DNA of 36,820 bases, from assembly GCA_017503015.1 (NCBI GenBank), contig JAFVTX010000065.1, forward strand, positions 1 through 36,820. Direction: 5' to 3'. This document shows, piece after piece, positions 21,737-26,097 of the stretch. The notes under the pieces are model-generated. The model was not told the origin of the DNA. It saw only the letters and a list, made by a program, of their open reading frames with translations, and did no database searches. Each line of letters begins with the position of its first letter. The stretch's first letter is position 1. The translations under genes and the position numbers were made by a program. This DNA comes from Fibrobacter sp. (GTDB lineage Bacteria; Fibrobacterota; Fibrobacteria; Fibrobacterales; Fibrobacteraceae).

Positions 21737-21877
21737 TTGAAGTCGTTTCTTTTTGTTTACAAAGTGCGGTAAAAGGCCAAATCAAAAAACGAATCCCAAA
21801 GATGGACTCATTTTATTGTATATTCTCGCAAGATGCAGATAGGAATCTGCTTGTTTTTAACTGATAAAAGGACATCT

Positions 21878-22612
21878 ATGAAACGTCTCTCTCTCGTTGC
21901 TATGGCAATCTTCTTCGCAAGCCTCGTGGCTTGCAACCAGGCCTCCGCCGGATCCTCCTTCAACCAGCAGGCCAAGCTGGACTCCCTGGAAAAGGATTTC
22001 AAGCAGGTCAAGGAAGAATTTGAAATCATCAAGTACGCCCTCGACAAGCGCGGAATCTCCCTGGAACAGGCCCGTGCCGAGATGGAAGCGGACAACAAGG
22101 TCTGGGACATTCCCGACGAAGACAGCCCGGTCTTTGGCAACACCAAGAACCCGAAGCTCACGATTGTTGAATTTACCGAATTCCAGTGCCCGTACTGCAG
22201 CCGTATCGCTCCTACTATGAAGGAACTGAACGAAAAGTACGGTGACAAGATCAAGTTCGTCTATAAGCATTTCCCCCTGAGCTTCCACGCCAACGCTCCG
22301 GCTGCAGCGGCTGCTTCTATCGCCGCCCACAAGCAGGGCAAGTTCTGGGAATTCCGTTATGCCCTCGCTCCCCACAGCCGCGAACTGGGCGATTCCATCT
22401 TTGTTGAAATCGCCAAGCAGGTGGGCCTGAACGTGGAACAGTTCAAGAAGGACATGGTTCTCGACTCCGCCATGCAGGCTCGTATCGACAAGGACTTCAA
22501 ACTGGGGGTTGAAGTCGGGGTTCAGGGTACGCCTAACTTCTACATCAACGGCAAGCGCCAGGACCGCTTCAGCAAGGAACTGGTGGAAAAGATGCTGAAA
22601 GAGGCTAAGTAA
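21878..22612 (+). CDS. DsbA-like thiol-disulfide lipoprotein
   Basis: 244 residues from ATG 21878 (AAAAGGAC upstream); an earlier in-frame start at 21833 lacks a site. A lipoprotein signal ends FASLVACNQ (Cys19). A short coiled coil (about 33-75) precedes a thioredoxin-fold domain with helical insert, with redox motif Cys104-Pro-Tyr-Cys107 in FTEFQCPYCSR, VYKHFPLSFH and the cis-Pro loop GVQGTPNFYING (about 216-227). It resembles the DsbA/BdbD (Thioredoxin_4) group that forms or isomerises disulfides in exported proteins. The lipid anchor places it at the periplasmic face of a membrane. A useful partner for Cys-containing secreted enzymes and lipoproteins here, though no DsbB-like gene is present. 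Confidence 0.93.
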   Translation: MKRLSLVAMAIFFASLVACNQASAGSSFNQQAKLDSLEKDFKQVKEEFEIIKYALDKRGISLEQARAEMEADNKVWDIPDEDSPVFGNTKNPKLTIVEFTEFQCPYCSRIAPTMKELNEKYGDKIKFVYKHFPLSFHANAPAAAAASIAAHKQGKFWEFRYALAPHSRELGDSIFVEIAKQVGLNVEQFKKDMVLDSAMQARIDKDFKLGVEVGVQGTPNFYINGKRQDRFSKELVEKMLKEAK

Positions 22613-22715
22613 GCCGCTGGTTTCGGCCGTACACACAAAGATTAGGCGGAAACTTCGTGTTTCTGTAGGAAAAGTTTAATTTTAAACAAAAATCAACAAC
22701 ATAAGGATGCGATAT

Positions 22716-23903
22716 ATGATGAAGCAAACTCTGAAGGTCGCCTCGATAGCCCTGCTTGGGCTTTTGACGACGGCAGCGATGGCTCAGCCCAAACCGCCTC
22801 GTTTGGTAGTTTACAAGTTCTTTGACGACCAATATCGTCAGGGTGGCTTTGACTATGCCTACGGTGGTTCTAGCAAGGGCGTTACCATTACCAAAGATGG
22901 TGGTTACAAGTCTAAGTCTGCCTTGAATATCAAGCTGGACCCCAGCGAGTATTCGGGTGCCTCTATCTGCTTGTATAACGAGTTCTTTGATTTGAACAAG
23001 TACATGCTGGACTCCAAGATCGAGTTCATGATCAAGGGCAAGAAGGGTGGCGAATCTGTGAAGGTTGGCCTCTTGGATGACGAAGTGGGCGATGGCAAGA
23101 AGACTCAAGTTGTGCTCCCCATGAACAAGTACATCGAGGGCGGCGCCGTCACGACGGACTGGAAGAAAGTCTCCATTCCTCTGGTGGACTTCCCGGACCG
23201 TGGTCTCTACTGGGACAACACCCGCAAGTCTGAATTTCCGGCCCGTATTGACTGGGACAAGATTGCTGAAATCCGTTTCTCTATCGACAAGAGCGGCGCC
23301 AAGGATTTCGAAATCTGGGTGGACAACATCGAAATCGTGAAGGGCAACAAGAAGGCCAAGCCCAAGGCCAAGATTGTCTACTGGGATGAAAACGAAGACG
23401 TCATCGACGGCCCGAAGAATCCCGAAAAGCTGGATGGCAAGGCCAAGGCTCTTGTCACCTTCTACGACAACAACCTGAAGGGCTTCAGCTACAGCTACGG
23501 TGGTCTTTCTGCCCAACGTGAAGCCAAGTCCAAGACGGCGGGCAACCCCAATGTGCTTGCCCTGTACATCGACAACAATGACTGGTCCGGTGTGACCTAC
23601 TCCATGGGCGAAGGCAAGTATGCCGACCTGTCCAAGGTTCGCAACAAGGGCGGTCTCTATTTCTGGATCAAGGGTAAGCTCGGCGGCGAGAAGGTCTATG
23701 TGGGTCTTCTGGACAACCAGGGCAACGACATCAAGAGCCAGACCAAGATTAGCCTGAACGACTGGATTGAAGGCGCCAAGGTGGGTACTGGTTGGAAACT
23801 GGTGAAGATTCCTCTGAAGAAGTTTGGTGACAAGGGTAAGGCTTGGGACGCCAACAAGCAGGCCGAAGTCGCTAAGGATATCCAGTGGAACAAGATTCAG
23901 TAA
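22716..23903 (+). CDS. N-terminal part of a GH51-type endoglucanase (CBM11-like modules), cut by TAA
   Basis: 395 residues from ATG 22716 (AAGGA eight bases upstream). A signal peptide ends TTAAMAQ (about 1-21). Two homologous beta-sandwich modules follow, about 30-215 and 235-395. Matching blocks are KVGLLDD/YVGLLDN, YIEGGAVTTDWKKVSIPL/WIEGAKVGTGWKLVKIPL and YWD/AWD; each starts with a F-(F/Y)D-(D/N) motif. They look like CBM11-type glucan-binding modules. The second is interrupted at WNKIQ-stop, where module 1 has WDKIAEIRFS. After the stop the same frame continues with IRFSVGKG for 662 codons. As it stands the product would be a secreted binding protein without catalytic domain. F. succinogenes has a GH51 endoglucanase (EGF/Cel51A) of about 118 kDa, which I recall as similar in size to the uninterrupted frame. 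Confidence 0.85.
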   Translation: MMKQTLKVASIALLGLLTTAAMAQPKPPRLVVYKFFDDQYRQGGFDYAYGGSSKGVTITKDGGYKSKSALNIKLDPSEYSGASICLYNEFFDLNKYMLDSKIEFMIKGKKGGESVKVGLLDDEVGDGKKTQVVLPMNKYIEGGAVTTDWKKVSIPLVDFPDRGLYWDNTRKSEFPARIDWDKIAEIRFSIDKSGAKDFEIWVDNIEIVKGNKKAKPKAKIVYWDENEDVIDGPKNPEKLDGKAKALVTFYDNNLKGFSYSYGGLSAQREAKSKTAGNPNVLALYIDNNDWSGVTYSMGEGKYADLSKVRNKGGLYFWIKGKLGGEKVYVGLLDNQGNDIKSQTKISLNDWIEGAKVGTGWKLVKIPLKKFGDKGKAWDANKQAEVAKDIQWNKIQ

Positions 23904-25892
23904 ATCCGCTTCTCTGTAGGCAAGGGCGAAAACCAAGGCGAACCGGGCAAGCCCGCTCCTGTGACCATCTTTGTGGACCAGATTACCTTCACCGAGAATA
24001 TCGACTGGGTCGACCCGGATATCAAGTGGGATAACTGGAACTCCAAGGAGAAGGACATGATCATCACCGACTTCGAAGACAAGTTCAAGGGTGATGTGTG
24101 GGAACCCTCCAAGGGCCCGAAGTCCAAGGTCGAAGTGGAAGTGCCTTTCAAGACCTCCAAGCTTGACGGCAATTCCCTCAACGTGAAGCATTTCGAAATG
24201 TCCGACTGGGTGGACATCGTGTTCGACATGGTCAAGAGCAAGCGCTCTGCCGCCGATCGCGACTGGACCAAGCACTGGGGCATTATGTTCGACGTTTATT
24301 CCGAACGTGCATGGCAGTCCATCACCGTGCAGATTGGTGACGCCGGCAACGAACTCTTCGTGGCCAACACCGGTGTGCCTCGTGGACGCACCACTGTGAT
24401 TGTGCCCTTCCGTGCCTTCTCCAAGTTCCCCTACTACCAGCCGCCTACCGCCAAGGAAAACGGTGTGTTCGACCTGAAGGGCGTTGTCTCTCTCGACTTC
24501 AAACCGGGTGGAGAAGGTTCTAATGGTAACTTCGAAATCGACAACATCAAACTCACCAACCAGAAGGAAGTTAAGGCTGCTGACCGTCCGGCTCTCGTGA
24601 AGGTTGAAGTCAAGGGTACCGGCGATGTGGTGAACCCCAACATCTCTGGCGGCCTCTTCGGTATCAACGCCGCCCTCTGGGATGGCGACATGTTGGACAA
24701 CCCCAAGTTCAAGGTGCAGACGGCTGAATATGCCAAGCGCATCAACCACGGCATCATCCGTTATCCGGGCGGTCTCCGTGCCGATGACGACCACTGGAAG
24801 GAAATCCTCGACAACCACGACTGGATGGTGGACACCGACGAATTCCTCGCCTGGTTGAAGAAGACCGGCTCTAACGCTATGTTCACGGTGAACTTCGGTT
24901 CTGGTACCGAACAGGAAGCCGCAGCCTGGGTGAAGCACACCAACGTTGACAAGAAGGCCGGCATCAAGTACTGGGAAATCGGTAACGAAGTCTACGGTAA
25001 CTGGCACCCCTACTACGAAAAGTACGGTAAGGACGGCGGTACCATCTATGGTAAGCGCGCTCGCAAGTTCATTGAAGCCATGAAGAAGGTCGATCCCACT
25101 ATCAAGGTGGCCGTGCTCGGCGTGCTGGATGGCGAATGGAACGACAACGTGCTTCGTGAAACCGGCGACATTGCCGACGGTATCATTGTTCACCACTACC
25201 CGCAGCACTATGGTGAAGAAAACGACTTCGCCATGCTCTCTGCTCCGCAGGACCTGGTGCCTATCTATAGCCGCCTCCACAAGCTGGTGGACAAGTGGAC
25301 CAAGCACTTCAACAAGAAGCAGAAGTTCGAACTCTGGCTCACGGAATGGAACTCCGTGGACTTCAACCCCGGTCCGCAGACCATTTCTCTCGAGAACGGC
25401 CTGTTCGTTGCTGACTATCTGGCTATGCTTGCCACCGAAAATGTGGACAACGCACAGTACTGGGATATCCACAACGACATCACTCCGGAAGGCGGTGACT
25501 ACGGTTACCTGACCCGTTCTGCCGAAGAGTGCATGAACTGCCCGCGCCCGAGCTACTGGGCTTTCCAGATGGCTTCCGACGCTCTCCGCGGCAAGCTCCT
25601 CAAGACTGAAATCTCCGGTGACAAGGAATCTCTCATCACCACCTACTACACCGAGAACGGCAAGAAGAAGTCCCTGTTGGTAATCAACAAGAACCCCTAC
25701 AGCGACTACGAGCTGAAGCTCTCTATCCCTGGTTTCTCCGGCAAGGCTACTGTCCAGACTCTGGACCGCAGCTCCGAAAAGCTCAAGGAAGGCTGGGCCA
25801 ACGACCCGTCCAAGAAGGCCAAGAAGGGCGTAGACGTGTCCAAGCCCATCAAGGTGGGTAAGAGGACCATCACCCTCATTACCATCGAGTAA
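23904..25892 (+). pseudogene. C-terminal part of the GH51-type endoglucanase (third CBM-like module and catalytic domain)
   Basis: Same frame as the upstream part, no signal peptide and no ribosome site of its own (the first possible start is GTG 23961). It completes module 2 (IRFSVGKG, VTIFVDQITF), then carries a third module (about 24070-24570) and a catalytic (beta/alpha)8-type domain from about 24600. This has RYPGG, the acid/base motif WEIGNEVYG (Glu codon 24987-24989) and the nucleophile motif LTEWN (Glu codon 25344-25346), typical of clan GH-A family GH51. A C-terminal beta domain ends at 25892. Reading frame and codon use are intact, so the nonsense change is recent, or the stop is a sequencing/assembly error or is read through. 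Confidence 0.85.
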
Positions 25893-25902
25893 TTGACGGA
25901 AT

Positions 25903-25933
25903 GTCATCCCCGACTTGGTCGGGGATCTCCTAG
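25903..25933. repeat. Palindromic GTCAT-type repeat (copy E)
   Basis: GTCAT, stem CCCCGAC/GTCGGGG around TTG, ATCTCCTAG. Confidence 0.75.
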
Positions 25934-25938
25934 CAACG

Positions 25939-25967
25939 AAAAGCCCCGGCTCTGCCGGGGTTTTTCG
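25939..25967 (+). terminator. Terminator of the endoglucanase gene
   Basis: Stem CCCCGGC/GCCGGGG with loop TCT, preceded by AAAA and followed by TTTTT. Confidence 0.9.
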
Positions 25968-25993
25968 TTTGTCCTGCAGGGTGTAAAAAACAA

Positions 25994-26019
25994 AAGACCC
26001 TCTCTTTCGAGAGGGTCTT
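25994..26019 (-). terminator. Terminator of the tRNA transcript
   Basis: Stem AAGACCCTCTC/GAGAGGGTCTT with loop of four, followed on the minus strand by TTGTTTTTT, 3 nt past the tRNA-Asp 3' end. Confidence 0.88.
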
Positions 26020-26021
26020 CG

Positions 26022-26097
26022 CGGGATAGACGAGGCTTGAACTCGCAACCTCCGGCGTGACAGGCCGGTGCTCTAACCAAAATTGAGCTACCACCCC
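26022..26097 (-). tRNA. tRNA-Asp (GTC)
   Basis: 76 nt on the minus strand. Acceptor GGGGTGG pairs with CTATCCC (one G-T and one more wobble), discriminator G. Anticodon arm CCGGC-CTGTCAC-GCCGG gives anticodon GTC, and the T arm has the loop TTCAAGC. CCA is not encoded. It lies 23 nt after tRNA-Val. Confidence 0.95.

Follow-up and report, generated by a model that had tools for sequence, protein, structure and literature searches.

The cel51A gene of the rumen-type Fibrobacter genome studied here is interrupted at codon 396, probably by a nonsense mutation of recent date that changed a single base (Glu396 to stop) and has inactivated the gene in this lineage or culture. In the window, the whole stretch of 36,820 nucleotides that was analysed, positions 22716–25892 of the forward strand form one frame of 1058 codons plus stop, which is open except for a TAA at 23901–23903. 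This confirms the single interruption described in an earlier note on this DNA. The three-CBM GH51-type architecture assigned there also holds and can be specified as CBM30-CBM30-CBM11-GH51, with the refinement that the stop lies inside the second module rather than between modules. The relevant features are:

22716–25892, forward strand: cel51A orthologue as judged by sequence (CBM30-CBM30-CBM11-GH51), one stop inside; domain order as in FSU_0382 / Fisuc_3111 (PMC6851124)
22716–22787, forward strand: signal peptide region, about residues 1–24 (sequence MMKQTLKVASIALLGLLTTAAMAQ; 1–24 is reported for FSU_0382)
22788–23345, forward strand: CBM30 module 1, whole in the truncated product (Pfam PF21582, 1.1e-14; strands 6–185 of the predicted model; Foldseek matches to CBM30 entries 1wzx, 1wmx and 2c24)
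23412–23993, forward strand: CBM30 module 2, with the stop inside it (Pfam PF21582, 6.5e-13; strands 221–402 of the predicted model)
23790–23792, forward strand: codon 359, GGT (Gly); Asp in 85 of 89 relatives, Glu in 3 and Lys in 1
23901–23903, forward strand: premature stop TAA, codon 396; Glu in all informative relatives
24051–24557, forward strand: CBM11 module 3' of the stop, approximate limits (Pfam PF03425, 1.4e-11; phmmer match to 1v0a)
24690–25892, forward strand: GH51-type catalytic domain and C-terminus, both putative catalytic Glu codons retained (phmmer matches to GH51 arabinofuranosidases, e.g. 3ug3, 2.3e-18; partial NCBIfam match)

Pfam places two CBM30 modules in the N-terminal part and the CBM11 module beyond the stop. 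In a phmmer search against the PDB, module 1 matched CBM30, the third module CBM11 and residues 659–906 GH51 arabinofuranosidases. Judged from these matches, the interrupted gene is the orthologue of Fibrobacter Cel51A (EG2/EGF/CelF), the principal cellulose-binding endoglucanase of the genus. The two Glu codons singled out by the earlier note, GAA at 24987–24989 (EIGNEVYG) and at 25344–25346 (LTEWNS), are both intact, and from general knowledge of GH51 we take them to be the catalytic pair. For FSU_0382 / Fisuc_3111 the published layout is a signal peptide (1–24) followed by CBM30, CBM30, CBM11 and GH51 (PMC6851124). The window copy resembles this protein, Cel51A / EG2 / EGF (CelF) of Fibrobacter succinogenes S85 (Fisuc_3111, FSU_0382), in domain order, in a signal peptide of ~24 residues and in being present once per genome, but differs from it by the stop at codon 396 and by Gly at position 359. 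With its frame for a secreted enzyme broken at codon 396, the gene is an interrupted cel51A copy and not a working Cel51A. Directly upstream, at 21833–22612, lies a gene for a DsbA-like protein with a thioredoxin fold. An antisense gene on the minus strand (22605–26048, 1147 aa) was considered and rejected. Of the 98 loci aligned, some of them partial, 63 have an antisense frame free of stops; since this openness is explained by the rarity of TTA, CTA and TCA codons, it is no evidence of a gene.

Among the 61 genomes searched, 52 (the window genome counted in) match the query, and 74 loci came from the genome collection. In about 30 genomes of the genus the gene is present over its whole length, codons 1–1058, at 81–97% identity and without a stop. 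Codon 396 encodes Glu in 89 of 89 informative relatives, a figure that does not stand for 89 independent lineages, because some genomes enter twice from two collections. It is GAA in every close relative and TAA in the window genome only, a difference of one G-to-T change. The surrounding residues W391, K393, Q395, R398, F399 and S400 are invariant in the 89 relatives. The alignment of WDKIAEIRFS in module 1 with WNKIQ-stop-IRFS in module 2, from which Glu had been expected at the stop, proved right. Apparent breaks in some relatives (L026/L095, L037, L099 and L102) do not correspond to the stop of the window; in these metagenome assemblies the frame is shifted or scaffolds are joined. A TAA within one of them (G022:C31, locus L099) was likewise dismissed as a second case, codon 396 being GAA there. 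RUG831, the assembly of this locus (OMSO01000074), seems to contain two different cel51A copies, probably from two strains that share one bin.

Compared with 96 loci, the window gene has only five private nucleotides, including the G-to-T change of the stop and the A-to-G change of D359G. At the protein level the stop and D359G are the only private differences in the whole gene, and comparable intact copies mostly have 0 to 2 private residues each. D359G is located in CBM module 2, 37 codons upstream of the stop; the chance of such closeness is 0.07. Close relatives lack the stop and the remainder of the gene is intact, as in a recent nonsense pseudogene. If the base is real, the window gene is no different from bacterial pseudogenes of this kind, which owe their stop to one substitution and were intact and functional until recently.

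Relative to four close relatives, the private changes of the window lineage are 9 synonymous against 1 nonsynonymous in the part that precedes the stop, and 25 synonymous against 0 nonsynonymous in the part that follows it. The neutral ratio of nonsynonymous to synonymous opportunities is about 3.0, so that a fully unconstrained branch would give ~75 nonsynonymous changes behind the stop. By our own arithmetic (Poisson, 95% bound) the unconstrained share of the branch is at most about 4%, a bound that ignores recombination, the presence of which is suggested by mosaic block identities. Relaxed constraint 3' of the stop, expected only for an old loss, is not visible (25:0), which fits only a very recent loss or an error. 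Since no private nonsynonymous change follows it, the stop, as far as substitution counts can tell, is either of very recent origin or spurious.

If the base is real, translation would begin normally and the protein would be exported, but synthesis would end inside CBM30 module 2. In the resulting product the first CBM30 would be complete and the second broken, and the CBM11 module and the enzyme would be lacking. Behind the stop, an open frame of its own (23961–25892) begins with GTG, and in-frame starts include GTG 23961, GTG 23973 and ATG 24057, the last with the purine-rich CAAGGAGAAGG upstream. In agreement with the earlier note, which had found no signal peptide in the second part, no signal sequence follows any of these three starts. 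At most, the post-stop part could be translated from a start of its own, as a fragment confined to the cytoplasm and unable to reach cellulose. We infer that the base is real and that the short product is non-functional. Other cellulases would remain in the cell. The window genome retains seven GH9 genes and a further GH51-type gene (L002), all of them free of stops; thus, the loss of Cel51A would be survivable.

In S85 the Cel51A gene is described as constitutive, as the top-expressed CAZyme gene and as one of the genes with the strongest transcription (PMC6204037), and it was single-copy in 40 of 40 Fibrobacter genomes compared (PMC6291624). For both reasons natural selection for the loss of Cel51A is not expected. 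An advantage, e.g. saving the cost of a constitutive secreted protein during growth on soluble sugars, is speculation. Since both CBM11 and GH51 are there, the post-stop half alone would still be scored as present in a survey of the latter type. The D359G exchange affects a site of module 2 that is mostly acidic elsewhere and would fit an early relaxation.

The main rival to the nonsense mutation is a base-call, assembly or strain-mixture error, in which case the living cell encodes a normal Cel51A. We regard this as quite possible, though less likely than the mutation. An error would equally leave zero nonsynonymous changes behind the stop, where no decay whatever is seen. The stop is known from one assembly alone: the collections searched carry one genome per species and yielded no further assembly of this species against which the base could be checked. 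With 37 codons between them, the two private residues could mark a locally poor consensus, as expected where coverage is low; their closeness speaks weakly for such a stretch or for an early relaxation of module 2. That relatives universally carry the gene and express it strongly (PMC6291624, PMC6204037) would also suit an error. Against this stands the quality of the assembly, which comprises 2.96 Mb in 74 contigs and is 99.94% complete and 0.22% contaminated. To estimate an interruption rate, 388 kb of the genome, the window included, was sampled. Antisense frames dominated the result of a first scan, and a stricter one gave 7 candidates, 6 of which were rejected as ordinary neighbouring genes with a start just behind a stop. 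The TAA of the window is therefore the sole stop inside a coding frame in this sample. Consequently, the assembly is not generally error-laden, but neither this sample nor the good genome statistics speak against a single substitution error, one wrong base. Neither a nonsense mutation nor a sequence error is a new kind of system; either is an ordinary event in an important gene.

The earlier note had listed recent loss, readthrough and assembly error side by side. The first and the last are the two leading explanations, whereas readthrough at some rate, giving a short CBM protein together with full-length Cel51A, is very improbable. Coding constraint is intact past the stop, which speaks for readthrough, but the youth of the stop alone explains this, and the stop is conserved in no relative (Glu in 89 of 89). 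Bacterial readthrough is least at UAA (PMC5289835). The genome gave 43 tRNA matches, and no UUA, CUA or UCA anticodon was found in the tRNAs read in the loci around them; no recoding signal was seen either. No RNA structure is predicted behind the stop; shuffled versions of the 120 bases that begin with it fold, on average, more stably than the actual sequence (z +0.99). Because a suppressor tRNA was not found among these tRNAs, UAA is the least leaky stop and no downstream structure is predicted, programmed readthrough is unlikely.

Equally hard to credit is selection for the truncated protein itself as a free binder of cellulose, a function that the earlier note had thought possible. Module 1 is complete and carries a signal peptide, and a CBM-only function for it is conceivable. 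The predicted model of residues 25–445 (mean pLDDT 87) consists of two beta-sandwich modules resembling CBM30 (1wzx, 1wmx and 2c24 in Foldseek, TM-scores mostly 0.76–0.78 by target). In this model the stop corresponds to residue 372, within the second-last strand of module 2 (370–376), and strand 392–402 is also lost. According to the model, the short product would thus keep module 1 whole, and the cut and the lost strand should spoil module 2. With the last two strands of that module gone, the case for a functional CBM-only protein is weak, and no sign of adaptive change was seen. A stand-alone secreted CBM30 protein occurs in most Fibrobacter genomes, including the close relatives G016 and G028, and no orthologue (compare L126:1343–2098) was detected in the 99.94%-complete window genome. 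The truncated product might replace it, but the missing gene may be unrelated. Fisuc_1525 is such a stand-alone CBM30 protein (PMC3079729). Proteins of this type are secreted and share a single complete CBM30 with the expected truncated product, but are encoded by a separate gene (33% identity) and naturally have one module, whereas the window product would add a broken second one. We likewise give little credence to a combination of both ideas, in which the stop is real and kept and a major cellulase gene has become the gene of a secreted cellulose-binding protein, perhaps for the missing stand-alone CBM30, with some full-length enzyme made by readthrough.

If the TAA is an error, it bears on the annotation of this genome only. 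If the nonsense mutation is real, an enzyme regarded as universal in Fibrobacter and as central to its breakdown of cellulose would have been lost naturally, and the mutation would provide a ready natural knockout for weighing the importance of Cel51A in an organism with few genetic tools.
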